64,000 nt of DNA from Terrimicrobium sacchariphilum (GTDB taxonomy: Bacteria; Verrucomicrobiota; Verrucomicrobiia; Chthoniobacterales; Terrimicrobiaceae): positions 620,001 to 684,000 of the forward strand of contig NZ_BDCO01000003.1 of NCBI RefSeq assembly GCF_001613545.1, written 5' to 3'. Positions 1 to 22,301 of this stretch are shown here, one piece after another. How positions within the stretch are numbered: position 1 is the first letter of the stretch; the number at the start of each line of letters is the position of its first letter. The notes under the pieces were generated by a model. It was given only the letters and a program-made list of their open reading frames with translations. It made no database searches and was not told where the DNA came from. The position numbers were made by a program, and so were the translations under genes.

Positions 1-1580
1 TCAAAACCAAATCCCATTACTCCATTGTTTGCGAGACTTTGATCCGGACTGGCAGTGTCTTTTGGTCCCGGGTCTCTCCCGAGCGAGCCGCTGAGGATGC
101 CGGCTTTCAGAAGCTCAAAGAAGTTGGGTTCCCGCCCTTCTGCGGCGACGACATCCAATGTCTTGATGGCGTGATCCGAAGGCATGGGATTGGCGAGTTC
201 CACGTAGTTCCAGCGCTTGTTCGCATTATCCCAATTCAGGCCGAAGCTGGCGCGGATGGCGGCATCGGAGATGCCTGAGGCGTTTCCATTTCTGGTGATC
301 CATGCAAGTTTTGCCAGGGAAAAGCGGCGTTGCAGCAGCGGGCTGCCTTTGGCGATGGGGTAGGTGAGACTGCCGCCGGCATCGTCGTAATGGGTGATCA
401 CGAGGTCCGATGGCGCCCTCACATTGGCGAGATTACGATTGGCTTTTCCTGCCATGTCGGCCTCGGCTCCGTAATTCACTGTGCTGCCCGCCGGTGTAGT
501 AGGCCTGGCCGATGGTGCATTGGCTGATCTGCTAAATGTGCTCAGATACGGACTGGCCTCAGAAGCGGCTTTTTTACTCAGGAAATCCAACATGTCCTGG
601 CGGCTCAATAGCGGGTTGTCACCCGCCCATTGCTGGAGAAATCCTTTGCGTGCGGATTGGGTAAGCAGGTTTGACCAAGGGGAAAAAAGTGTGCTGCCGC
701 CTTGATTACGCCGACTTACAAATTGATCGATTACAGATTGTGAAAGCCCGGGAATGACACTCAAGTCCGCATAAGACACGTAAGACTTGCCAGCAGTCGC
801 TCCGGGCTCGGCGGCTACGGCCGCCTGAGGCAGGCCGGCCACATTGATGTCCAGGAGTGAACCCTGGTCGTAAATCACATAGGCGTAGCGGCCGAGAACG
901 GCATTGGCATTCGCGCCGCCTGGATCGGCCCAGAGGCTGCCAGAGGCAGCCTCGGTATCGCTGCAAACGCGCGTTCCTGACCGGGTGACATAGATCCAGT
1001 CCGGAGGTTTTGCCGAGAACGGCTGTGCTGGTTGAGCGCCAAAGAGTTGTGGTTTGTTCCAACGGGCCGGGGTGACCCTGCGTCGATTGGCCGAGACATT
1101 GGTCGTGGAAACGTCAGACGCTACCAGGGAGGGCAGTTTGGCGGTGTCGTACCCGGCCGGATAGTTTGCATTATAGCGGCTGACTTGAAGAAGCGATGGG
1201 GGGAGTTTGGCGCCCGTGCTGTCCACATCCGTGGAGAAGTCTGTTGCCGGAAAACCGAGGCGTGCAGGAACAGAGGTGGAATTTGTCAGAGCTGGGTAGA
1301 TGCGGATGCCGTTTACGGTGTCGCTTGCGTTTGCACTCGAACCTGCATCAATCTCTTGCAGCAGCCCCGACACAATCTGCTGCATTGCACTTTGGGCGAC
1401 TTCTTCAGCTTTGATGGCTTGCCCATAGTTGCTCATGGACTGTTTGTCCAATTGCACGGAGATGAGATATGACAAAAGCAGGGCGGCCAGGATGGTGATG
1501 ATCGCCAGAGTGGTAACCAAAGCCGCGCCTTTGTTTCTAGCACGGTAAGTTCTGGCGCGAGGAGGGCGGGAAGAAGTCAT
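1..1580 (-). CDS. Verru_Chthon cassette protein A (partial, C-terminus beyond window)
   Basis: The minus frame starting at ATG 1580 stays open for about 526 codons to the left edge, so the 3' end is missing. The N-terminus is basic, followed by a single hydrophobic helix (residues about 18-42, starting GAALVTTLAIITILAALLLS) as in PilX/GspK-like minor pseudopilins. The rest is a long Ser/Thr/Ala/Asn-rich extracytoplasmic domain. The start overlaps the stop of the upstream cassette gene (ATGA at 1577-1580), so translation is probably coupled. The family named Verru_Chthon cassette protein A is typically the largest member and sits beside B, C and D, exactly as here. Its function is not known; a role in assembling or capping a pilus- or type-II-secretion-like pseudopilus is inference from the N-terminal helix. 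Confidence 0.85.
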   Translation of the reverse strand, partial: MTSSRPPRARTYRARNKGAALVTTLAIITILAALLLSYLISVQLDKQSMSNYGQAIKAEEVAQSAMQQIVSGLLQEIDAGSSANASDTVNGIRIYPALTNSTSVPARLGFPATDFSTDVDSTGAKLPPSLLQVSRYNANYPAGYDTAKLPSLVASDVSTTNVSANRRRVTPARWNKPQLFGAQPAQPFSAKPPDWIYVTRSGTRVCSDTEAASGSLWADPGGANANAVLGRYAYVIYDQGSLLDINVAGLPQAAVAAEPGATAGKSYVSYADLSVIPGLSQSVIDQFVSRRNQGGSTLFSPWSNLLTQSARKGFLQQWAGDNPLLSRQDMLDFLSKKAASEASPYLSTFSRSANAPSARPTTPAGSTVNYGAEADMAGKANRNLANVRAPSDLVITHYDDAGGSLTYPIAKGSPLLQRRFSLAKLAWITRNGNASGISDAAIRASFGLNWDNANKRWNYVELANPMPSDHAIKTLDVVAAEGREPNFFELLKAGILSGSLGRDPGPKDTASPDQSLANNGVMGFGF

Positions 1581-2449
1581 CGGATGGTGGCAATGGGGAG
1601 GGCTACCTGGCGCTCGAAGGATTTGAGTCCCACCCTCAGGGGTTCCGGGAGGCTGGCGATGCCGGAGCCGGAGCGAATCAGATCATTCCAGTATGCTGCG
1701 TAGCTTTCATTAGGGTCGGGAGTCCCGGAAAATGCATCCATCAGCTCCGAAATCCTGCCCGTGTCTTTGGCAAGCTTCAGCGCAGTTGAGTCAATCACCA
1801 GCAACGACAAAACCAGAGATCGGGCGTTCGTTGTCGAGGAGGGATTGTCATAGTCGTATTGAAACAACTTGCTCAACGTTCCATCTGCCAAAACAAATTG
1901 TACCTCCAGTCGGAGCACCCCGTCGGTGAGGGCCTGGGAGGTTGCCTTATCCAGATCCGGCATGAGGCCATGCGTGCCGTAAGGCGGCGTACTTGTTGAA
2001 TCGAAGGAATACCCATAGTCATACCGGATCAACTCCGGTGCCGTGGGCAAGCCGGTCATTTGATAAGCCACCAGGGCAAGCTTGCGTTCCTGGCCCGGAC
2101 TGGAAACCCGTGTGAGAAAAGCCAGCGCAGGCTTCCCTCCAGTATCTACAAAAGAAGCCAGATCCCGCCGTAGCACGCTGGACTGGATGTCCCGGTCCAT
2201 CAGCCCCAACACGGTTCGAGCTTGGGTGAAATTGTCTACCCTGGCCCTACCGGTGCTCCATGTCTTGGACGCCAGCGAGACCATCTGTGATAGCAAAAGC
2301 AAGATCACCGACAATACGGCCACCGCTACCAGCAATTCGATCAACGTAAAGCCCACGGTGCGCCGGGGCGATGCATCCCAGCTAGTCGTCTCCACATCTT
2401 GGGATGGAAGTGGAGTGAAGATGGAATTTCTCAGCTTTCGGGAAAACAT
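1577..2449 (-). CDS. Verru_Chthon cassette protein C (type IV pilin-like)
   Basis: 290 residues. After a 33-residue basic leader it carries a prepilin N-methylation motif (G33 then FTLIELLVAVAVLSVILLLL, with Glu at +5), followed by a globular domain with a pseudopilin-like helix (NFTQARTVLGLMDRDIQSSV). The protein would be cleaved by a prepilin peptidase and sit in the inner membrane or a pseudopilus. It lies between genes B (5 bases upstream) and A (4-base overlap), so the three are one operon read leftwards. Length and order match Verru_Chthon cassette protein C, a family defined in Verrucomicrobium and Chthoniobacter. The partner secretin, ATPase and prepilin peptidase are not in this window. 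Function beyond pseudopilin-like is unknown. Confidence 0.88.
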   Translation of the reverse strand: MFSRKLRNSIFTPLPSQDVETTSWDASPRRTVGFTLIELLVAVAVLSVILLLLSQMVSLASKTWSTGRARVDNFTQARTVLGLMDRDIQSSVLRRDLASFVDTGGKPALAFLTRVSSPGQERKLALVAYQMTGLPTAPELIRYDYGYSFDSTSTPPYGTHGLMPDLDKATSQALTDGVLRLEVQFVLADGTLSKLFQYDYDNPSSTTNARSLVLSLLVIDSTALKLAKDTGRISELMDAFSGTPDPNESYAAYWNDLIRSGSGIASLPEPLRVGLKSFERQVALPIATIR

Positions 2450-2454
2450 CAGGA

Positions 2455-2913
2455 TTATCGAGGGGGAATGCTGGCGAGCACTTCATAGTGTCCGGCCGCA
2501 TTTGCCGGCGACGCTTGGGCGGGCCAGTGAAAATTAAGATATACCGAGAAATTCTTCCGACTCCCCACGGCCGGGGCGTCAACGCGATAGGTCAGGGCGT
2601 ATCGAGCTTCAGCCGCCGAGGGAGCGATCAAGCCGTTCTGATCCAGATTGACGACTGTTTTCGCTATGCTTGAGCCAGGCTGCAATGCGGGGATTGGAAA
2701 CTTTGCACCCAAATTGCTATCTGGTGTGTTCCTTCTCATCGCCAAAAGTTTCTGGCTCAAATGACTCACCTGCAGAATATCGGCTGATTCCTTCTCGGTT
2801 CGGATTCCCACAGCGAACAGCCCCATCAGGGCGACCAAACAAAATGAAGTGATTCCCAAAGCCAAAACAACTTCGGTCAAGCTGAATCCAGGGACCTTCC
2901 GAGGAGTATGCAT
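2455..2913 (-). CDS. Verru_Chthon cassette protein B (type IV pilin-like)
   Basis: 152 residues, first gene of the leftward B-C-A operon. A short leader ends in Gly9 and is followed by FSLTEVVLALGITSFCLVAL, a canonical prepilin cleavage and methylation site with Glu at +5 and a hydrophobic assembly helix. The remaining ~110 residues form a small soluble domain with no recognised catalytic motif. Size and position match Verru_Chthon cassette protein B. The 200-base gap to divergent gene D should hold promoters for both directions; no confident -35/-10 pair could be picked out. Role as minor pseudopilin is inferred from the N-terminus. Confidence 0.85.
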   Translation of the reverse strand: MHTPRKVPGFSLTEVVLALGITSFCLVALMGLFAVGIRTEKESADILQVSHLSQKLLAMRRNTPDSNLGAKFPIPALQPGSSIAKTVVNLDQNGLIAPSAAEARYALTYRVDAPAVGSRKNFSVYLNFHWPAQASPANAAGHYEVLASIPPR

Positions 2914-3114
2914 TTTCTGGGGGAGTGTTACAAAGTGAAACGATAAAGATTACATAGTACCTACATCAATGTTTTTTTTAGGTAGATTTGCTCTGGGATT
3001 GGGTTTGGATATTTTAGCGAGGAGGTCAGAAATCCCAGAAACATCGGATTTTGTTCATTTCTTCGGTTGCAAACAGTTTCCTTTTGAAACATTGTTGTCG
3101 CAACTCCCCTTCTG

Positions 3115-3759
3115 ATGTCTTGTCCCACAATCGCCAGCAAGGCCTTTTCGCTCGTTGAACTCCTCTGTGTCATTGCTGTCATTGCGATTTTGACCACCGT
3201 TTCGATTCCTGCACTCAGGGGCCGAGCCAATGATATGAACGCGGGGCTGCACGTGGCCGGTGGGGTGATGGAGTTTGCGAGGCAGTACGCCATAAGTCAA
3301 AACACGTATGTTTGGGTGGCCGTGCGCTCATCGACGTCCGGAGAGGATGGAAGAATCGCGGTGATTGCCTCAAAAGATGGGACGGATCTCTTGTCGTGGT
3401 CTTCGGCTTCCACAGATGTTGCTTCATCCACAGATCTCGAATTGGTCGGACCGGTCCGCACTCTTCCCAGAGTGCGGGTAGTAGACGCAGCCACGGCATC
3501 GATTCCGAGTATGCCAGCCGTTTCGGGCGCCGTTAAGATGGCGGAAGTCGACTTCCAGGTCGGCAGCGGGAGCGGATCGCAGAATTTCAATAGAGCGGTT
3601 CAGTTTACCCCCACAGGCGAGGCACGGGTAACGTCCGGAGTGGTTGATCGATACATCGATATGGCGCTTTTACCGCATCAGGCAGCGCTTACGGATCCTA
3701 ATCAAGCGGTTATCCGGATTTTTGGCCTTACGGGGAAAAGCGTGGTTTATCGAAATTGA
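3115..3759 (+). CDS. Verru_Chthon cassette protein D (type IV pilin-like), divergent
   Basis: 214 residues, transcribed away from the B-C-A operon. The N-terminus has a pilin-type motif starting at F11 (FSLVELLCVIAVIAILTTVS, Glu at +5), with Ala10 rather than the usual Gly at the -1 cleavage position. A GspH/FimT-like region follows (VMEFARQYAISQNTYVWVAV), which is typical of protein D. The ATG at 3115 fits the start of the leader; no strong Shine-Dalgarno is visible, which is common in these bacteria. It completes the cassette A/C/B/D. The Ala at -1 is tolerated by some prepilin peptidases, but it means processing of this subunit should not be assumed. Function unknown. Confidence 0.87.
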   Translation: MSCPTIASKAFSLVELLCVIAVIAILTTVSIPALRGRANDMNAGLHVAGGVMEFARQYAISQNTYVWVAVRSSTSGEDGRIAVIASKDGTDLLSWSSASTDVASSTDLELVGPVRTLPRVRVVDAATASIPSMPAVSGAVKMAEVDFQVGSGSGSQNFNRAVQFTPTGEARVTSGVVDRYIDMALLPHQAALTDPNQAVIRIFGLTGKSVVYRN

Positions 3760-3996
3760 AACTTACTGGACGGTCGCGATCGCTCCATGCCATTCCGGAC
3801 CAGGTGTGATTCCGTTGGGAAGGGATAACAGAAGGTTTTCTCCTATTCGTGGAATGAACATAGTCAGTGAACCCTGGGTTTCTGTTTAGGCCAGAGAACA
3901 AGGTCTTGCCGTGAAATCACAGTTCCGTGAAAGTCTCTATGGAGACGTGAAATGGAACGGTGGTGTGAGTGAAATCTAGTACTTTGCCAAAAGAAG

Positions 3997-4309
3997 CTAG
4001 TGCCTCAGATTTCGATCCAGCGTGCGGTATTGGATGGCTTCCATCACATGTGGAGGTTGGATGGTGGCGCTTCCGGCGAGGTCGGCGAAGGTGCGGGAGA
4101 CCTTCTGAATGCGGTTGTAGGCGCGGGCGCTGAACTGGAGGTTGGTGCTGGCGTGGCGGAGGAGCTCCTGACCGGCGCTGTCGAGCCGGCAATGCTCCTG
4201 GAGCTGGCCGTGCGACATCTCGGCGTTCGTGCGCGTCTTGCGGGATGAGGCAAAACGCTCGCACGGGAGCGGATGCCGGAGGAAGTGTCGGCGCTTTCCG
4301 TGCTGCTGG
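3997..4309 (-). pseudogene. Decayed second copy of the 3' end of comM
   Basis: This segment is a diverged copy of the last ~337 bases of the intact comM gene (5740-6076) in the same orientation. Of the 73 C-terminal residues from the shared MSHGQ motif to the stop, 63 are identical by direct comparison. Further upstream a ~25-base deletion relative to comM shifts the frame, and homology stops near 4309, four bases from the stop codon of the membrane-protein gene at 4313. There is no ATPase domain and no plausible start, so it is a remnant and not a gene. The two copies flank gene 4313-5722 as direct repeats. Confidence 0.85.
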
Positions 4310-4312
4310 CTT

Positions 4313-5722
4313 TTACCTTACGTCGGTCAGATTCGCGAGGAGATTGGAAATCAGCATCTGTGTGCGCGGGCTGGCTTGCGATAGATTGAGTAGTCTAAGG
4401 CGAGCGATGGCGGTTTCCTTCTCGGAGGGCGTCAGGTGTTTGCGGACACCCTCATAAGCGGCAGCAACAACATCGGGATCATTGCTGGACAAAGCCCACT
4501 CCATTTCTGGGGCCGTGGCATTGGATCGCTCCATGGCAAAGAGCATCATCTTACGGCCTCGGGGATGAGCGTTCTCCAACGCCTTGGGAAAAAGCGAGAA
4601 GGCGGGGGTGCCCAGGTTTCTGAGGTTACTGACCACATTTGCGGAGCTATTCTCGTCTCCCCAGTACGGTTGGGAAGCGGTGATGAGCTGTGCGGCGTAT
4701 CCGTTGATCTTCTCAGAGATCTTTAACGAGGCGACAGAGTTTGAATCATCCGGAGGCACCCCGGCCCAATGGCGGATAGCTTCAGGAGGCGGCGTCTTGC
4801 CGGTGGTATGGCTGTGGAGTTCATTCAAATTACTTGCGACGTTCTCCAACGCGTATATCGCTGCAGAACGCAGCTTCTCCTGGGCAGGAATGATTGCGGC
4901 TATCTCAGATATCAGATCAAAACTCTCCGCGTTCGAGCAGAGGGAGCCCAGGGTCTCGAAATCAGCGGCTCCGGTTACACGGGTTTGACGGAGTTGATCG
5001 CGAATAAAGTGTTGGAGCGAGGGTGAAATGAGTTCGTCCGGCTGCTTAAGAAAGACAACGATAGGTTTCTTACCATCGAGAGAATATGATGCGTTTTCGG
5101 ATAGGATTCCCTTCCACCAAGAGGTGACCTGCACAGTTTGTGCGGCATCATGGAAGCTGCTTGCCTTCGGGGCTTTTGAGATGCTGAAACACAGTCCGTT
5201 GGAATCACTTTCTTCAAACCTGATAGACCCAAGCGGATCGTAGCGGAACCTGATACAGCCATTGGAATCTGTGAGGAGAAACTTTCTGCCTTTCTTCACA
5301 CGATCATGTTCGGCCGTCGCGAACAGGCCGATGCCCCTGGCCGGGGAACCGTCGGCTGCCAAGACCTGAACTGTACGCTCGACGGTGCAGGAATAGTGTT
5401 CAACCGTAATTGCTGCCGTCGCAAGGACAACGCCTGTCAGAATTGCGGCCGGTCGAGGGTGCCTGGGAAGTGCAAAGAGTCCTGCCAAAAGCAAGGCGAA
5501 CCATGGCCAGCCAATCATCAAGGCAAATAACGCCCCCAACGCAGCCATATCCGGGCCGTTGTTTGCCGCGATAACAGCACCAACCCGATAGCTCATCAGG
5601 AGAGTGAAAGCCATCGTGGGAGTCCAGATGGACGCGGCCCACGCACGCTTCCGAAGCACGAAAGTCGCAATCAATGCTGCGGCAACCAAAATCATCAACG
5701 GAAAGTGAAATTGGTACGGCAT
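4313..5722 (-). CDS. Hypothetical membrane protein with large soluble domain
   Basis: 469 residues, not recognised as a named family. Four hydrophobic segments occupy residues ~5-110 (for example PLMILVAAALIATFVL and ILTGVVLATAAITVEHY). A region of about 90 residues follows that resembles a carboxypeptidase-regulatory-like beta-sandwich (TVQVLAADGSPARGIGLFAT), then a helical C-terminal half of ~250 residues that could be HEAT-like. It starts 17 bases after the comM stop and could be co-transcribed with it. It lies exactly between intact comM and the decayed comM tail, which suggests it arrived in one recombination event. Its base composition looks less GC-rich than comM. Function unknown. Confidence 0.6.
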   Translation of the reverse strand: MPYQFHFPLMILVAAALIATFVLRKRAWAASIWTPTMAFTLLMSYRVGAVIAANNGPDMAALGALFALMIGWPWFALLLAGLFALPRHPRPAAILTGVVLATAAITVEHYSCTVERTVQVLAADGSPARGIGLFATAEHDRVKKGRKFLLTDSNGCIRFRYDPLGSIRFEESDSNGLCFSISKAPKASSFHDAAQTVQVTSWWKGILSENASYSLDGKKPIVVFLKQPDELISPSLQHFIRDQLRQTRVTGAADFETLGSLCSNAESFDLISEIAAIIPAQEKLRSAAIYALENVASNLNELHSHTTGKTPPPEAIRHWAGVPPDDSNSVASLKISEKINGYAAQLITASQPYWGDENSSANVVSNLRNLGTPAFSLFPKALENAHPRGRKMMLFAMERSNATAPEMEWALSSNDPDVVAAAYEGVRKHLTPSEKETAIARLRLLNLSQASPRTQMLISNLLANLTDVR

Positions 5723-5739
5723 GGATGATGATTAGTTCT

Positions 5740-7275
5740 TTAGTGCCATAGGTTGCGATCCAGGGTGCGGTATTGGATGGCCTCCATGACATGGGGCGGC
5801 TGGATGGTGGGGCTTCCGGCGAGGTCTGCGATGGTACGCGAGACTTTTAATATGCGGTCGTAGGCGCGGGCGCTGAGCTGGAGATTGGTCATGGCGTGGC
5901 GCAGGAGCTCCTGCCCGGCGCTGTCGAGTTTGCAATGCTCCTTGATCTGGCCGTGCGACATCTCGGCGTTCGTGCGCGTTTTGCGGGATGAGGCAAAACG
6001 CTCGCGCTGGATGCGGCGGGCCTCGATGACGCGGGATCGAATCGCTGCGGACGGCTCGGCGCTTTCGGTGCTGCTGAGATCCTTGTACTCCACGGCAGGG
6101 GCTTCGACATGGAGGTCGATGCGGTCGAGCAACGGGCCGGAGATGCGGTTGCGGTAGTTCTCGATCTCGCGCGGCGAGCACCGGCACTCGCGTTTCGGGT
6201 CTCCATAATAACCACATTTGCAGGGGTTCATCGCTGCGATGAGCATGAAGTTCGCCGGGAAGGTCACGCTGCCCGCTGCGCGGCTCACGGTCACCTGGCG
6301 ATCTTCCAGGATCTGCCGCAGGGTTTCCAGCGTGGTGCGCTTGAACTCCGGCAGTTCATCGAGAAAGAGCACGCCGTGATGCGCTACGCTCACTTCGCCG
6401 GGCGAGGGATTGGCTGATCCGCCGACGAGGCCGACATCGGAAATGGTGGAGTGGGGGGAACGGAACGGCCTGCGGCCGACGAAGGGTGCGTCGTTTTTGA
6501 GCATCCCGGCCACGCTGTGAATCTTTGTGGTTTCGATGGCCTCCTCCAGCGTGAGCGGCGGCATGATGGTGGCGATGCGCTTCGAGAGCATCGACTTCCC
6601 GCTGCCCGGAGGTCCGATCAGCAGCAAAGCGTGGTTGCCGCTCACAGCCACCTCGATGGCGCGTTTGACATGATGCTGCCCCTTGACCTCGGAGAAATCG
6701 ACTTCGTCGCGAGCCATGGACTCAAACAGCGCCTCGACATTCTCGGTCACGGGCGACAGTTCGGCCTTGCGGGTGAGAAACTCGTAGGTCTCGCGGAGGT
6801 TAGTCACGCCATAAACCTCGATGCCCTCGACCATGGCCGCTTCGCGCGCATTGGCGAGAGGAAGCACGACGGCCTTGTGCCCGCGATTGCGCGCTTCCAG
6901 TACCATCGACAGCGCACCCTTGACGGGACGGACTTCGCCGGTCAGCGCCAGCTCCCCGGCGACGAGGCAGCGGGCGAAGCGAGGCACATCCTCATCCAAC
7001 GCCGCCGCGATCATGCCGAGCGCGATGGGCAGGTCAAAACTGGGGCCTTCCTTTTTAATGTCGGCGGGAGCGAGATTGATCGTGGTGCGCTCGCGCGGCC
7101 AGCGGTAGCCGCTATTCGAAATGGCCGTCGTGACGCGATCCTTGCTCTCCTTCACGGCGACATCCGGAAGCCCTACGACCACAATTTGCGGAGCGCCAGG
7201 GCCGGTGTTGACCTCGACTTCGACTTCAACAGCGTCGACGCCCTGAATGGCGGCGGAAAAGACTCGGGTCAGCAT
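5740..7275 (-). CDS. comM: YifB/ComM family Mg-chelatase-like AAA+ ATPase
   Basis: 511 residues, the usual length of the family. Domains in order: an N-terminal Lon-protease-like S5 fold ([20 protein letters not shown], then [20 protein letters not shown]), the Mg-chelatase AAA+ core with Walker A GPPGSGKS near residue 220 and Walker B LFLDEL near 300, a zinc-finger-like cysteine cluster ([17 protein letters not shown]), and the C-terminal Mg-chelatase-related helical domain. In Vibrio and others ComM is a hexameric helicase that promotes branch migration when transformed DNA is integrated. Here it is complete; the odd feature is the second copy of its 3' end at 3997-4309. comM is a documented insertion site for genomic islands in Acinetobacter, a useful parallel but not proof. 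Confidence 0.93.
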
Positions 7276-15514: not shown

Positions 15515-15602
15515 GTTGCGCGGGCATTCGTCAGCGATTTTGAGCGATTCGTCCCAAAATCGTTGTTTTGAGGGAGCAGCGCTCGTCTTGTGGCCCCTCG
15601 CC

Positions 15603-18600
15603 ATGACTGCTCGCGCCCGAATTGTCTGCTTTTGCCTGCTGTTGACCCTTACCTTGGGAAGGGTTTCCCCTTCTTGGGCTCAGGATGTTTTCTATTCGGG
15701 AGCGGATAATGGTTTCTGGTTCACGCCGTCCAACTGGAGTTCGGGCGCAGTTCCTACCAGTGACAGTTCTTCCGAAACATACATAAACAATTTTAGCACG
15801 GTCCGGATCGACGCTGCGGGAGCAACGGCAAATAGGTTGAACATTGCAGTATTTTCGGGGGTCGGGACAGGAGATGGAGGGCTGATTGTGAGCGGTGATG
15901 GGCGATTGACGACGACATCGCTCTACGTGGGCGCCCGGGAAAACGGAACACTGTCGGTCATCGACGGAGGGCAGGTAATAGTCGCGCAAAATCTGGCTGT
16001 GGGCATTGGCGCTGGCGGAAATGGCAGCCTCACCGTGTTCGGCGCGGGATCCCTGTTTTCCTCGCTTGACCAGTTGGCTATAGGGACGTCGGGAGGTGAA
16101 GGTTTCCTGAAAGTTGAAGATGGAGGCAGGGTCGATCTGGCCTCGACGCTGACCGTGGGAGGTGTCAATGCGGGCTCGAAAGGGCACGTGCATTTGTATT
16201 CCGGCGGGATTCTCCAGGTTGCGTACATTCAGGAAACCGATGGCCAGGGAACGATTGATTTTGACGGAGGTATCCTGCAGGCCAGAGAAAACCAGTCGGA
16301 CTTTCTGCGGTCCTTTGAGGCGGGAGATGTGACCATCGGGAATGGCGGGGGCACGATCGATACGAACGGCTACAATATCGGCATCTCCTCCGTAATCGGT
16401 GGGACGGGTGCGTTGACCAAGATCGGAGCGGGGACACTCACGCTCTCCAATACTGCCAGCAACACCTTTAATGGCCTCATCGTGCGCGGCGGCAAGGTCG
16501 TGATCGATACGGCGGCGTGGGTGTATGGCTATGCGGGCGATGTGGTGCTTGGCAACAGCTCAAGTCCCGGTGCTGCTGACAGCGCGGAACTGGCAATTAC
16601 CGGAGATCAGCAGGCCGCCTCGTCCGGTCTCACCATTTATCAGGACGGCTTGCTCCGGGGAAGCGGGAGCGGCAATCGTATGTTCTATTCCTCCCTCACC
16701 ATGACAGGAGGACATGTTTTCCTGGACAGAAGTTTTCTCTTTTTGGAGGGCGGGCTGACGACGAATGCCTCGGCTGCGAGCGCATTGATCGATGGCTCCG
16801 GATTGTTCAAACTAGGTGGAAATCCGCGGACTTTCACGATAGCAGACGGTTCTGCGACCTATGATCTCAACGCTGTAGTGCAGTTGGACAACGGCGTCCT
16901 CGTGAAGGATGGCGCTGGAACCATGCGCATCGCAGGCAACAACTCCAGCAACTTTTCTGTCAACCTGAAGGCGGGCACGGTGGCTCTCGCCAATAATGGT
17001 GCGCTTGGCACGGGAGCCTTTGTGGTCGACGGCGGTACGATCACCCCGGATAGCGGGGATCGCTCGATTGCGAACAACATCACGCTGAACAGCGGGCTCA
17101 CGGTCGCCGGAAGTCTCGACGGCTCCGAGCGCAATATGACTCTTTCAGGCGTCATTTCCGGCTCCGGGGGGCTGACCAAGACTGGGAGCGGTTCCCTGAC
17201 CTTGAGCGGAGTCAATACATATACTGGCGGCACGCTGGTCACCGGGGGGCGGCTCATCGTTGCCAACAATAGTGGGCTTGGAAATCCTGGAGGCTTCGGA
17301 GACGCTGCCGCGGCATCGGGATCGACCGCTGTCATTCAAGTGAATTCCGGCATCACTGTGAACAAGGCCCTCGCAATGTCCAACGGCGGCACGATCGATA
17401 ATCGCGGTACGATCGTTTCGGGCTTCTTCGCAGGTGTCACAGGCTTGAACGGCGGGACCGTGCTGAACACCGGCTCGATCTCATCAACGAATGGAGATGG
17501 GGCGTACTTTGAGGCGGGTGCTGCAGGGTCGGTGACAAATACCGGCGGAACGATCCAGGGCAAAGGAGGAAACGGCGCGTGGCTGAAGGGCGGAGGGTCG
17601 ATCAAGAATGAAGAGGGAGGCCAGATACTTACCATTTCCACAGATTACGATGCCATCTGGATCGAGGGTGGCGCCGGTACGGTGGACAATCTTACAGGCA
17701 GCACCATCACCGGACGCTACAATGGCGTGACTCTGGTCGATGGGGGCACCATCACCAATAGCGGTAACAGCACGATTCAAACGACGGGCAATGGCGGCCA
17801 GAATGGCATCCAGGGAAGCGATGCGGCGGTAACAGTCAATAATCTCGACACGTCGACGATCAGCGGTCGTCTTCGCGGGGTATGGCTGGACGCGGGCGGC
17901 ACCGTTTTAAATGAAGGCACCATTTCGAACACGGCGACCTCGGGGTCGAATATTGCCGGAGTGCGGTTTTCCACCACGGCTGCGACCTTGATCAACAAGG
18001 GAACCATTAACGGTGGAGTGCTAATGGCGAATCAGGCCCATACAGCCACGCTCTTCTCCGGGTCAAAGATCAATGGAGCCCTCAACATGGGCACGAGTGC
18101 CTCGGCAGCCTTGAAACTGGACGGCACGGGCTCGCAGTTGCTCTCCGACGCTGTCACAGGTGCGATCACTTTTCGCGGCGCGCTTTCCAAGCTCGGTTTC
18201 GGCACGTGGACTCTCGACAAAAGCCTGACCTCGGTTGCCAGCACCGACATCCAGGCGGGAATATTGAAGGTGAACTCCACACTCAGCGGAAGCACCTCGG
18301 TGCGGTCGGGTGCGACGCTCGGAGGCTCGGGAACACTCTCGGGCGCGGTGACCGTGGAAGATGGCGGCATCATCGCGGCGGGAAACAGCCCGGGAGTTCT
18401 CACCCTTGGCTCTCTGGACCTAAGCAATGCCTCCCTCCTGAACTTTGAGCTGGGCAATCCCTCGAGCGACCGGATCGACGTGGGCGGATTGCTGAATCTC
18501 GACGGTGTTCTCAATGTTACTGCCGTCACGGGTTTCGGGGCGGGCACCTATCGCCTGTTCAATTACGGCTCTTTGACGAACGACGGATTGGCCTTTGGCA

Positions 18601-21600
18601 GTGTCGCCATGCCTTTCGAGTACCAGATCGATCTCAGTACACCGGGGCAGATCAATCTCGTCGTCACCGCCGCCGAGTGGCAGTATTGGGATGACAGCCA
18701 GACGACACCCAATGGGACCATCGAAGGCGGCTCGGGGGTCTGGGATACGGGCACGACAAACTGGACCAGCTCGAGCGGCAATGCGAATGCGGCGTGGAAC
18801 GGCTCTGTGGGGGCTGTCTTCAAGGGCGCGGCGGGTACCGTGACGATCGCCGACGGCGCGACGGTCACGACTCCGGCGATGAGTTTCCAGGTCGACGGCT
18901 ATACGATTGCCGGGACAGGCACGGGAAATCTCCAATTGGCGGGAGATGGCGCAATCGAGGTTTTTGGCGGCGCGACGGCGACCATCAGAGCAAAGATCAC
19001 GGACGGTCAGTTGGATAAACGTCAGGCCGGGACGCTCGTTCTTTCCGGCGAAAATAACTACGCGGGCGGCACCACCATCTCGGCAGGAACGATCTCCGCG
19101 CAGAACGATTCCGCCCTGGGAACGGGTGCGGTGACGATTGCCAACGGAGCGAGGCTTTCCGTAGATACGACTCAGCTCCTGATTGGAGGTCTCAGTGGCG
19201 TCGCCGGCTCCCAGGTCATCCTGGATAATGGGAATGCGATGGGCATCGACCTAGCGTCTGGCTCCTCGACCTTTGCGGGAAATATCACCGGCTCGCTTTA
19301 TGGTTTCCTCGTGAAATTGGGCGCGGGCACCCAGGTGCTCAGCGGGAATAACACCTTCGCGGGACAAGTTGATGTTTTTGGCGGCGAACTCGTATTTGCC
19401 AGCAACATGGCGCTGAGCTCCAATGCCTACCTCGGAGCGCAATTCGGGCAGGCGACAATCGCGGGTGTCGATTTGACGGTGGCCCAGCTCATCGGCAGCA
19501 CCGGCTCCATCGTGCTGAATGGCGGTTCCCTGACACTCGGAGGAGCCAATGCGGCAAACACCTTTGGCGGCGCGGTAAGCGGGACGGGTGCATTGATCAT
19601 GGACGGTGGCAACTCGTCCACGCAGACCATCTCCGGAGCCAATACCTACAGCGGAGGCACGACGGTGAAGAGCGGTACGCTGGCCCTGTCCGGCAATGGT
19701 TCACTCCTCTCAACCGGGGCGCTATCGGTGGATACGAACGGAACGTTCAATATCTCGGCGCTGAGCGGCAGTGCGACCACGGTCGGAGACTTGTCCAACG
19801 CGGGGAGCATCGTGCTCGGGGCGAAAAATCTGATCTTTGGCGCGGGTGGCAATACCACGCTTTCCGGAAGCATCACGGGAACTGGCGGGCTGACCAAGCA
19901 AGGGGCAGGGACGGTACGCATCACCTCGGCGAACCTTTACAGCGGCGGCACCACCGTCAATGCAGGAGTGCTCGAAACCGCCAACGCTGCGGCTCTCGGC
20001 ACTGGCGCGCTGACCTTGGGCGGCAATGGAATGGTCGCGCTTGATAGCGGCACGACGCTATCGGTCCAGGCTCTCAATTGGCAGAGCGGCGGAACCTTCC
20101 GGTTTTCACTGGGCTCGGTCACCGCCTCGACCCCGTATGTCTCAATCAGCTCTCTGCTCTCGCAGGGTGGGACGGGGGTATTCAGCTTTACCGATGGTGG
20201 TTTCCAGGGAAACACGACCTATGATCTGCTTACCTTCGACAGCACCTCAGCGGTCGATGCGTCGCTCTTCACCGCCAACATGGTCTCCGGTTTAGGCGGT
20301 ATCTTCGTTGTCCGGGATAATGGTGACGGAACGTCGACGCTCACCGTCCGCTACAGTGGCAGTGCCCAGAGTAATGTCATCAACAACTACGCTCCCGACT
20401 GGACTCCCCGGAATGCAGATTTTCTCGTTAACGGCAATGTCCAGTCTCTCGCGGGCAACCAGCAGGTGAATTCGCTCACTTTTGGAAATGGCTCAAATCT
20501 CGACATTCTGGGGCTGCTCCAGGTTACCTCCGGGCAGCTCAACGTGCCGCAGGGGCTGGCCTCCATTTCCGGCGGGACTTTGTTTTTGCCCGACGCACTG
20601 ATCAAGCTGGGTGCGGGTCAGCTCAACCTGCTCGGCTATGTGCTGGCCAATGGCAATGGCTACGTGCAGGACGGAACGCTCTCGGTCAACGGAGTGCTCA
20701 GCCTCAAACAACTGATCGTGCAGTTTGGCGCGATCCTTAAAGGAGCAGGAACGATCATCGGCGATGTGCTGAACCAGGGAACCGTGGCGCCGGGCAATTC
20801 GCCGGGGACGTTGACCATCGCGGGCAACTTTACGCAGACCGGCACGGGTGATTTGCAGATCGAGGTGGCGAGCTCGAGTGTCTTTGACCAACTGGTCGTC
20901 ACCGGAACAGCCAGCCTCGGAGGTACTCTGGCCGTGCAGAGCTACAATGGCTTTCAGTTCGCCTACGGGCAGCAGTTCAACTTCCTGCAAGCGGGCAACA
21001 TCATGGGAAGCTTTGATTCCATCACGATGCCCGATCCGGAAATCTTCCGCGGACGGTTTCTGAGCAATGCAACGACAGGCACGTTGTTGGTGGCGCCGAC
21101 CAGCTACACTCTTGTCGCGGAGACGCAGAACCAGCGGAACGTGGCCCATGCGCTCGATAGCTACATCCCTGCGACGAGCGGAGATCGGGAGGCGGTGAGC
21201 ATTGCGCTCGATCTCCAGACTGCGGAGCAGTATCCGGCGGCGTTTGACGCGATTGCCCCCGGCTACTACGAGACGCTGACCGATACGACGATCGAGCAGG
21301 CAACGGCGCAAAATCAATTTGTTGCCCAACGCCTCAGTGCGGTGCGTCTTGGAGCGCGCGGCTTTCAGGCCATCGGCATCGAGGCTCCTCTTGTCAACGA
21401 TCGCAATGGCAAGAATGTCCTCGATGCGAAGGATGGCAAAGACTTGCTTACTCCCTCGCCGGACAACAAATGGGGCGTGTGGGCGCTTGGCAATGGCATC
21501 TTCTCCAAGGTGACCAGCGTGAGCCAGATCCCGAACTACCGCTTCCAGAGCGGCGGATTCCTGGTCGGTGCGGATTACGCCTGGAGCGAGAACTTCGCCA

Positions 21601-22301
21601 CCGGTGTCTTCGGCGGATACCAGGGGACGTATGCGAAGTACGGCAATGGCAGCATGTCGTCCGTGAACTCTGCGCTCTTCGGCGGCTACGCGACCTATCA
21701 GAATGGCGGCTTCTACAGCGACGCCATCGTGAGCGGCGGATACAATGGCTATATCGCCAAGCGCGCCATCCAATTTAGCACGATCGACCGCACAGCCCGG
21801 GCGAACCCGGATGGCGGGCAGTTCTCGACTTATCTCGATGCCGGGCATGACTGGCAGGTGGGCGGCTTTACCTTTGGGCCGCTCGTGAGCGCACAATACA
21901 CGTATGCAGGCATCGCTCCGTTTTCGGAAACCGGCGCCGACAGCCTCGACCTGCGGCTTGAGCAACAGAATGCCAACAGTCTGCGCACCAATGTTGGCGG
22001 ACGTATTGCCTACACCTGGAATGCCGGATCCCATGTCGTCCTGATCCCCGAGGTGCGGATGTTCTGGCAGCACGAGTATCTGCAAAACTCGACCGCCATC
22101 GGCGCCAGTCTCGATGGCGGGGCCGGGGAGTCCTTTGACTACATGACCACTGTGCCGGGGCGCGACAGCGTATTTGCCGGCGCGGGCGTGAGCGCGCAGT
22201 TCGGCGAGGATTTCAACGCCTTCGTGTATTACAATACGGACTTCGGTCGTCAGGATTACTTGAGCCAGATGATCTCCACCGGCCTAGGCTGGAAGTTTTA
22301 G
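15603..22301 (+). CDS. Giant autotransporter with T5SS/PEP-CTERM-associated and beta-strand (PATR) repeats
   Basis: About 2232 residues from ATG 15603, which begins a signal peptide (MTARARIVCFCLLLTLTLGR, ending ..SWAQD); a TTG start at 15516 would only add an unrelated leader. The passenger opens with a W..NW module, then repeats such as LYVGARENGTLSVIDGGQV and LAVGIGAGGNGSLTVFGAGS (T5SS/PEP-CTERM-associated repeats). Many autotransporter-associated beta-strand repeats follow (GGTGALTKIGAGTLTLSN, GSGGLTKTGSGSLTLSGVNT, GTGGLTKQGAGTVRITS). A second W..NW module sits near 18680-18900, as if the passenger were assembled from two units. The last ~270 residues, from WGVWALGNG, form the outer-membrane autotransporter beta-barrel and end in aromatic Phe (GLGWKF). 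Predicted surface adhesin or structural fibre; the ligand is unknown. Few or no cysteines, as usual for passengers. Confidence 0.93.
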   Translation: MTARARIVCFCLLLTLTLGRVSPSWAQDVFYSGADNGFWFTPSNWSSGAVPTSDSSSETYINNFSTVRIDAAGATANRLNIAVFSGVGTGDGGLIVSGDGRLTTTSLYVGARENGTLSVIDGGQVIVAQNLAVGIGAGGNGSLTVFGAGSLFSSLDQLAIGTSGGEGFLKVEDGGRVDLASTLTVGGVNAGSKGHVHLYSGGILQVAYIQETDGQGTIDFDGGILQARENQSDFLRSFEAGDVTIGNGGGTIDTNGYNIGISSVIGGTGALTKIGAGTLTLSNTASNTFNGLIVRGGKVVIDTAAWVYGYAGDVVLGNSSSPGAADSAELAITGDQQAASSGLTIYQDGLLRGSGSGNRMFYSSLTMTGGHVFLDRSFLFLEGGLTTNASAASALIDGSGLFKLGGNPRTFTIADGSATYDLNAVVQLDNGVLVKDGAGTMRIAGNNSSNFSVNLKAGTVALANNGALGTGAFVVDGGTITPDSGDRSIANNITLNSGLTVAGSLDGSERNMTLSGVISGSGGLTKTGSGSLTLSGVNTYTGGTLVTGGRLIVANNSGLGNPGGFGDAAAASGSTAVIQVNSGITVNKALAMSNGGTIDNRGTIVSGFFAGVTGLNGGTVLNTGSISSTNGDGAYFEAGAAGSVTNTGGTIQGKGGNGAWLKGGGSIKNEEGGQILTISTDYDAIWIEGGAGTVDNLTGSTITGRYNGVTLVDGGTITNSGNSTIQTTGNGGQNGIQGSDAAVTVNNLDTSTISGRLRGVWLDAGGTVLNEGTISNTATSGSNIAGVRFSTTAATLINKGTINGGVLMANQAHTATLFSGSKINGALNMGTSASAALKLDGTGSQLLSDAVTGAITFRGALSKLGFGTWTLDKSLTSVASTDIQAGILKVNSTLSGSTSVRSGATLGGSGTLSGAVTVEDGGIIAAGNSPGVLTLGSLDLSNASLLNFELGNPSSDRIDVGGLLNLDGVLNVTAVTGFGAGTYRLFNYGSLTNDGLAFGSVAMPFEYQIDLSTPGQINLVVTAAEWQYWDDSQTTPNGTIEGGSGVWDTGTTNWTSSSGNANAAWNGSVGAVFKGAAGTVTIADGATVTTPAMSFQVDGYTIAGTGTGNLQLAGDGAIEVFGGATATIRAKITDGQLDKRQAGTLVLSGENNYAGGTTISAGTISAQNDSALGTGAVTIANGARLSVDTTQLLIGGLSGVAGSQVILDNGNAMGIDLASGSSTFAGNITGSLYGFLVKLGAGTQVLSGNNTFAGQVDVFGGELVFASNMALSSNAYLGAQFGQATIAGVDLTVAQLIGSTGSIVLNGGSLTLGGANAANTFGGAVSGTGALIMDGGNSSTQTISGANTYSGGTTVKSGTLALSGNGSLLSTGALSVDTNGTFNISALSGSATTVGDLSNAGSIVLGAKNLIFGAGGNTTLSGSITGTGGLTKQGAGTVRITSANLYSGGTTVNAGVLETANAAALGTGALTLGGNGMVALDSGTTLSVQALNWQSGGTFRFSLGSVTASTPYVSISSLLSQGGTGVFSFTDGGFQGNTTYDLLTFDSTSAVDASLFTANMVSGLGGIFVVRDNGDGTSTLTVRYSGSAQSNVINNYAPDWTPRNADFLVNGNVQSLAGNQQVNSLTFGNGSNLDILGLLQVTSGQLNVPQGLASISGGTLFLPDALIKLGAGQLNLLGYVLANGNGYVQDGTLSVNGVLSLKQLIVQFGAILKGAGTIIGDVLNQGTVAPGNSPGTLTIAGNFTQTGTGDLQIEVASSSVFDQLVVTGTASLGGTLAVQSYNGFQFAYGQQFNFLQAGNIMGSFDSITMPDPEIFRGRFLSNATTGTLLVAPTSYTLVAETQNQRNVAHALDSYIPATSGDREAVSIALDLQTAEQYPAAFDAIAPGYYETLTDTTIEQATAQNQFVAQRLSAVRLGARGFQAIGIEAPLVNDRNGKNVLDAKDGKDLLTPSPDNKWGVWALGNGIFSKVTSVSQIPNYRFQSGGFLVGADYAWSENFATGVFGGYQGTYAKYGNGSMSSVNSALFGGYATYQNGGFYSDAIVSGGYNGYIAKRAIQFSTIDRTARANPDGGQFSTYLDAGHDWQVGGFTFGPLVSAQYTYAGIAPFSETGADSLDLRLEQQNANSLRTNVGGRIAYTWNAGSHVVLIPEVRMFWQHEYLQNSTAIGASLDGGAGESFDYMTTVPGRDSVFAGAGVSAQFGEDFNAFVYYNTDFGRQDYLSQMISTGLGWKF

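Follow-up and report, generated by a model that had tools for sequence, protein, structure and literature searches.

A displaced comM 3' end in Terrimicrobium sacchariphilum, probably the scar of a gene-end-replacing insertion

How does a second, damaged copy of a gene's 3' end come to lie behind the intact gene, with one other gene in between? The question is raised by comM (yifB), which encodes a magnesium chelatase-like AAA ATPase, in a 64,000-nucleotide (nt) stretch of Terrimicrobium sacchariphilum (contig NZ_BDCO01000003.1, positions 620,001 to 684,000; contig C3 of the 4.75 Mb source genome, G000 in our set), hereafter the window. There, intact comM is followed by a 469-codon gene and then by a partly decayed comM 3' end, which we call the tail (Table 1). 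We consider that the tail is probably the scar of an insertion in which incoming DNA carried its own comM 3' end and replaced that of the resident gene. This reading draws on the divergence of the tail as coding sequence and on the zone behind comM, which is different in each of the three congeners and contains additional displaced ends; it draws also on the recurrence of the layout in the order and on one genome, G021 (less cleanly a second, G152), with a foreign resident end and the native end displaced. An earlier reading of the window from sequence alone (the original prediction) had proposed that foreign DNA with its own gene end recombined into comM, and that proposal is supported by the divergence, by the variable zone and by G021 and, less cleanly, G152.

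The second comM end and its divergence

The arrangement described by the original prediction, an intact comM, an intervening gene of 469 residues and a diverged comM 3' end in the same orientation, is confirmed. Pfam recognizes the resident gene by Mg_chelatase (1.2e-91), ChlI (4.4e-43) and Mg_chelatase_C (4.3e-34). The tail repeats its end directly in two blocks, 3998-4268 against 5741-6011 (271 nt, 87%) and 4264-4308 against 6032-6076 (45 nt, 78%); the repeat spacing shifts from 1743 to 1768 between them, which reveals a 25-base deletion in the tail. The tail starts at the equivalent of window position ~6077 (codon ~400), its ~311 bases representing ~337 bases of comM minus the deletion, and 63 of 73 C-terminal residues are identical to those of ComM (BLASTP 3e-44). 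Chance similarity is ruled out by a local alignment score of 368, as compared to a maximum of 27 among 100 shuffled sequences. The stop codon of the 469-codon gene lies only a few bases from the tail start. This gene has a guanine-plus-cytosine (GC) content of 54.5% (60.4 at third codon positions), as compared to 63.0% (78.7) in comM, and has matches in 3 of 167 genomes of the order: the source genome itself, a remnant in the congener G001 and distant ones (25-29%) in G073. Its earlier label of membrane protein is fair in view of two hydrophobic stretches (residues 3-27 and 59-86) and weak in that the protein gave no Pfam family over the cut-off (best MG4, E 0.011).

Over 87 codons, the tail differs from the comM of its own genome by 21.5 synonymous and 11.5 non-synonymous differences, corresponding to a synonymous divergence (dS) of 0.48, a non-synonymous divergence (dN) of 0.060 and a dN/dS of 0.12; by simple reasoning, ∼0.5 is the expectation for a copy decaying beside a constrained gene. 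Two displaced ends of G001, tails A and C, differ from the comM of that genome by 37 synonymous and 2 non-synonymous differences in 158 codons and by 35 synonymous and 6 non-synonymous differences, respectively (dN/dS 0.01-0.05). Between species of the genus, the whole resident gene shows dS of 0.49-0.64 and dN of 0.003-0.010. Because the tail differences are mostly synonymous, and reach as far as those between the comM genes of sister species, we reject in-place duplication followed by decay, which the original prediction had offered as its other possibility. The substitution pattern suggests that the tails diverged mainly as working comM genes in separate lineages, and that the tail in the window would afterwards have decayed for some time. 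It had also been asked whether this tail is closer to the comM of another lineage. Within the genus it is roughly equidistant from all three resident genes (87.5% to that of the source genome, 85.3% and 86.0% to those of the congeners) and nearest to another displaced tail, t1 of the congener G002 (89.2% across just 130 bases). Support is weak in trees built from the short 3' region, where the two tails group at 73.

Table 1. Features at the comM locus of the window, boundary positions within comM, and the block shared by two congeners (coordinates are those of the window unless a genome and contig are named)
Feature	Location	Strand	Basis or remark
Intact comM / yifB (Mg chelatase-like AAA ATPase), 511 codons	7275-5740	minus	Pfam; 100% / 99% protein identity to G001 / G002
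469-codon orphan gene, two hydrophobic N-terminal stretches	5722-4313	minus	Open reading frame, hydrophobicity, base composition
Displaced, partly decayed comM 3' end (comM nt ~1199-1536, 25-base deletion)	~4308-3998	minus	Direct repeat and C-terminal residues
Variable zone (part) between comM and conserved downstream block	1-5739		Synteny; continues left of the window to contig position ~610.3 k
Boundary position 1, comM nt ~961-985, codon ~324	6291-6315	minus	Uninterrupted in window; boundary in G152, G021, G158, G112, G116
Boundary position 2 (AMNPC motif), comM nt ~1047-1057, codon ~350-357	6219-6229	minus	Uninterrupted in window; boundary in G001 tails A and C, G002 C9, G031, G110, G054, G083
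Boundary position 3, comM nt ~1401-1416, codon ~469	5860-5875	minus	Uninterrupted in window; boundary in G002 (twice), G043 (twice), G135
~230 bp block with zinc-finger-like reading frame	G001 C36:309276-309515, 379129-379362, 293173-293387; G002 C9:316422-316655		Precedes a comM end in 3 of 4

Displaced comM ends in the genus and the order

Gene order ahead of comM is syntenic in the source genome and its two congeners, G001 and G002. The distance from comM to the next conserved block is ~15 kb in the source genome and ~6 kb in G002; in G001 the conserved block lies on contig C36 at 220-239 k, with 141 kb more of that contig after it, and 39 kb extend beyond comM on contig C54. The strand of all G001 pieces fits what is probably a single array of ~180 kb or more. 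Three displaced comM ends lie in the G001 zone, all on one strand. In G002, two ends follow comM, of which the second is heavily decayed, and a different contig, C9, carries a further comM fragment. Among ten zone proteins scanned were a heparinase-like protein, a GH94 piece, a putative glycoside hydrolase, a sodium:solute symporter and an amidohydrolase. The 469-codon gene gave no match in G002, and in G001 only the remnant (77% over 207 bases) that follows tail A, beside a different displaced end; by this remnant, the gene has a history next to comM in two species. Relatives with the same gene and both copies in order, which the original prediction had named as the sign of an old vertical duplication, were not found; the congeners show other layouts, and we reject such an arrangement. 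Tails A and C and the C9 fragment all start at boundary position 2, behind the common ~230 bp block. That block occurs once without comM (G001 C36:309 k), and its translation gave no Pfam family above the cut-off and no convincing relative outside the genus. The conserved block also contains a second insertion point, holding ~6 kb in G002 (C11:1465293-1471447), 4.6 kb in G001 (C36:232855-237497) and nothing in the source genome.

With the window comM as query, at least 144 of 156 genomes of the order gave a match and at least 35 gave two or more, the latter count being a lower bound since 9 candidates were scored in most genomes. Some of these multi-match genomes have comM cut by contig ends or a frame break (e.g. 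G084, G101 and G042). As a rough control, a recA model, a query that differs in kind and length, gave two or more matches in 6 of 156 genomes, and in at least three of these, pieces lie at the end of a contig. We have rescanned completely 32 of the 35, the remaining three being the source genome and its congeners. Among the multi-match genomes, nine have an intact comM with one or two tails downstream on the same strand (G000, G002, G021, G043, G077, G106, G114, G135 and G152). Wherever an intact comM and a 3' piece share a contig, the piece is downstream and on the same strand in 9 of 10 genomes, the exception being G054, whose 3' halves lie on the opposite strand. The tail count excludes G143, whose comM is cut by a contig end, and five genomes whose pieces lie on contigs other than that of comM: G102 (at the contig edge), G058 (a 52% piece), G112, G158 and G001. 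No clear tail was found on either side of comM in any of 60 further genomes with the intact gene, hand-chosen for usable flanks rather than at random (downstream flanks 765-9465 bases): DNA matches spanned 18-37 bases (the longest, 37 at 89%, in G051), and protein matches were at most 34% identical. Ten other loci in the same scan had been picked beforehand, nine of them with tails and one (G102) with none in 2.6 kb. One genome, G128, carries two full-length comM genes (C28:14171-15700 and C143:298-1827; 66% and 65% identical to the window comM), which may reflect contamination or a second copy.

Replacement of a gene end by incoming DNA predicts a chimeric resident comM and a displaced end that resembles close relatives. 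The comM of G021 is 94.3% identical to that of G016 over nt 1-960 and 65.2% over nt 985-1536, as compared to 88.5% for its displaced tail, and each of the 14 genus members compared resembles this tail more than the resident end. For G152 against G153, identity is 91.1% and then 73.7%, with 85.4% for the longer tail piece. The change-point log likelihood ratio (lnLR) is 107.9 (at nt 1020) for G021, 42.2 (at nt 958) for G152 and 19.9 for G152 against G162; the remaining 11 comparisons, which make up 10 distinct pairs and involve neither G021 nor G152, do not exceed 8.3. Judged by these comparisons, the resident comM of G021 is a chimera, with a native 5' part, a foreign 3' end and the native end displaced; that of G152 appears likewise chimeric, less cleanly, and it is G021 alone that carries the result. 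The resident end of G021 (family f1) is nearer to G152 and G153 of family f13 (75.5% and 74.2%) than to two members of its own genus, G016 and G010 (65.2% and 66.3%). In G152, the resident end closes with 190 bases that match G162 at 88-92%, which makes this end a mosaic. At the same locus (L219), resident and displaced ends are nearly identical for ~90 bases past the junction and ~72% identical thereafter, which looks like local conversion or a crossover further in. The G152 DNA after the comM stop, tried as a probe for further element copies, matched, besides G021, mostly two things, a short stretch dispersed in f13 genomes and another stretch that, by its place, we take for PEP-CTERM coding ends; we claim no further copies, and have not used the similarity that G021 and G152 show past the comM stop as evidence for a shared element end.

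Boundary positions and competing explanations

Boundaries recur at three positions within comM (Table 1), and at two of these, comM is split by serine-recombinase elements in relatives: at position 1 in G116, and at position 2 in G031, in G110 and in two copies in G054; G083 has a 3' half that starts there as well. Serine recombinases are encoded on the contigs that hold the 5' halves of G054 (two), G031 and G110. Displaced ends of the window's own genus (G001 tails A and C and the G002 C9 fragment) thus begin at a site that such elements target. The sequence ahead of the junctions is partly shared: the 3' halves of G054 and G083 have ~400 bp in common, and in G152 and G021 the ~50 bases ahead of the tail are shared (83% in a match of 59 bases, part of it comM), as compared to only ~20 for G158. 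The G054 contigs C55 (L204, L205 and L227) and C45 (L206) together hold one intact comM, two 5' halves and two opposite-strand 3' halves, equivalent to three comM genes; both 5' halves end at codon 357, each abutting a serine recombinase. In G116 (C24:215-247 k), comM is split at codon ~325 by 26.7 kb with a 650-codon serine recombinase, and another comM 3' end (359-510) lies 3.3 kb after the split gene.

In the gene-end-replacing insertion that we favor, incoming DNA bearing its own comM 3' end would enter comM, and the resident 5' part would be joined to the incoming 3' end, so that comM stays whole. The old 3' end would be pushed downstream behind the cargo and decay there, and repeated events would stack displaced ends behind comM. 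The source genome may have followed the same course; the original enzyme would then have been a site-specific, probably serine, recombinase, and the insert would later have been reduced to a single gene, with loss of the recombinase and of the tail's beginning.

Several results weigh against this account. The tail of the window, starting at codon ~400, matches none of the three recurrent positions, and its start is seen in no other genome; the tails of G077, G106 and G114 also begin away from those positions. No replacement was seen in five of the seven genomes tested (G043, G077, G106, G114 and G135), where relatives resemble the resident end at least as closely as the tail, apart from a slight deviation in G106 against G109 (resident end 73.7%, tail 74.5%). 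The comM of the source genome, compared to that of G002, gives no chimera signal (lnLR 4.4), and nothing visible marks its 3' end as foreign. Against G162, the resident end of G152 is slightly closer than part of its tail (78.3% versus 76.0%). No tyrosine (PF00589) or PF07508 recombinase was found in the zones of the source genome and G002 or on G001 C36 and C54, transposases and serine recombinases without a PF07508 domain not being searched for; the DNA between comM and tail in G021 and G152 likewise gave no match to the recombinase profiles used. Finally, C54 and C36 of G001 are paired by synteny and strand, with no sequence join. A tyrosine recombinase beside the comM fragment of G002 (C9:314732-315907, L025) was set aside, as it adjoins a transfer RNA (tRNA)-like sequence (judged by eye, with no tRNA search); no relatives of it at E 1e-10 were found in the source genome or G001. 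An 80% identical partial copy of it, with a stop, lies at C9:412348.

A serious rival, though we think it rather unlikely, dispenses with a dedicated recombinase. Transforming DNA from a related species would recombine homologously within comM, and its other end would be joined illegitimately inside the recipient comM, leaving a hybrid gene, the cargo and a leftover tail with an arbitrary start. This would suit the singular start of the tail in the window and the varying starts in G077, G106 and G114, and also a zone with a single cargo gene and neither of the recombinase types searched for. Arbitrary joints should scatter, however, whereas the boundaries recur at three positions in different families; moreover, element ends are shared at position 2 (~230 bp in G001 and G002, ~400 bp in G054 and G083) and, over ~50 bases, at position 1 (G152 and G021).

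We find it improbable that the tail was a passenger, that is, a foreign comM fragment already attached to island DNA that landed downstream of a resident comM that never changed. The 3' piece lies downstream on the same strand in nine of ten genomes (the tenth being G054), and the displaced end is native in G021 and, less cleanly, in G152; for the passenger there speak the G002 fragment, which sits behind the shared block on a separate contig (C9), the block standing alone at G001 C36:309k, and the missing chimera signal in the source genome and in five of the seven genomes tested. Highly improbable is a tandem duplication of the comM end in place, followed by insertion of a gene and decay of the copy: the copy is near, in the same orientation and nearest, among resident genes, to that of its own genome, but its dN/dS, like the still lower values of the G001 tails, falls short of the expectation for decay, and the congeners have other layouts.

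Known systems, broader reading and neighboring features

Both magnesium chelatase genes as serine-recombinase targets and gene-end replacement are already known. In Escherichia coli, icd receives a new 3' end from the e14 element that enters it, and its former end (163 bp icd') remains as a displaced duplicate (PMC6379469). Where an integrase site lies well inside a gene, as at icd, attP carries replacement sequence that keeps the gene functional, in identity blocks of up to ~250 bp (PMC10111431). The window and the nine genomes of the order with tails, the source genome among them, resemble e14 at icd in having an intact target gene and a displaced 3' end downstream on the same strand. The comM cases differ from it in that the target is comM and the displaced ends reach ~570 bp (G152) and ~490 bp (G001), beyond the ~250 bp quoted; in that there are three recurrent positions in one gene, and stacked ends; and in that the window has one cargo gene, with no PF00589 or PF07508 recombinase found in the zone (other enzyme types were not searched).

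Most sr1WO recombinases of Wolbachia phage WO integrate in a magnesium chelatase gene (PMC9203015). Boundary position 2 falls where comM is split in G031, G110 and G054, on contigs that carry large serine recombinases of this kind. Insertions of these elements leave comM in two pieces, whereas the window has an intact comM and an extra end downstream. Their junction at the AMNPC site is found in G001 tails A and C and in the G002 C9 fragment, and not in the tail of the window; a serine recombinase of this kind is present in G054, G031, G110 and G116, while none was found in the window zone by the PF07508 search. The parallel with Acinetobacter drawn by the original prediction holds for comM as a target of large islands, and stops there. 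AbaR islands are built of transposons and, to our knowledge, bring no replacement gene end. In Acinetobacter baumannii, AbaR insertion inactivates comM, and in Acinetobacter an insertion in this gene lowers natural transformation (PMC7508600); the window comM is full length.

More speculatively, and as an unlikely case on the whole, the comM end might be a standing landing site for small non-autonomous gene cassettes that have their own comM 3' end and are moved in trans by recombinases recognizing positions inside comM; these would stack, pass between bacterial families and swap the C-terminal part of ComM each time. Examples of cargo would be the 469-codon gene in the source genome, a PEP-CTERM protein in G152 and an amidohydrolase between two tails in G002. 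In the open-access literature searched, we found no description of displaced comM ends, nor of their stacking behind comM in combination with three boundary positions and end replacement across families. If elements do land in comM and supply a new end, ComM is kept whole, and stacking at one locus becomes possible; the displaced ends would be a readable record of past insertions, and the swapped end could cross families (f1 and f13 in the case of G021). As a favorite target of serine-recombinase elements, comM is a concrete place to ask whether elements evolve target repair.

Elsewhere in the window, three reading frames with prepilin N-terminal methylation motifs lie inside the variable zone (1577-2449, 2455-2913 and 3115-3759), one of them under the Pfam cut-off, in DNA of ~55% GC. 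A 2261-codon frame at 15516-22301 resembles, as judged by eye, a repeat-rich autotransporter, and has a ~70% identical homolog in G001.

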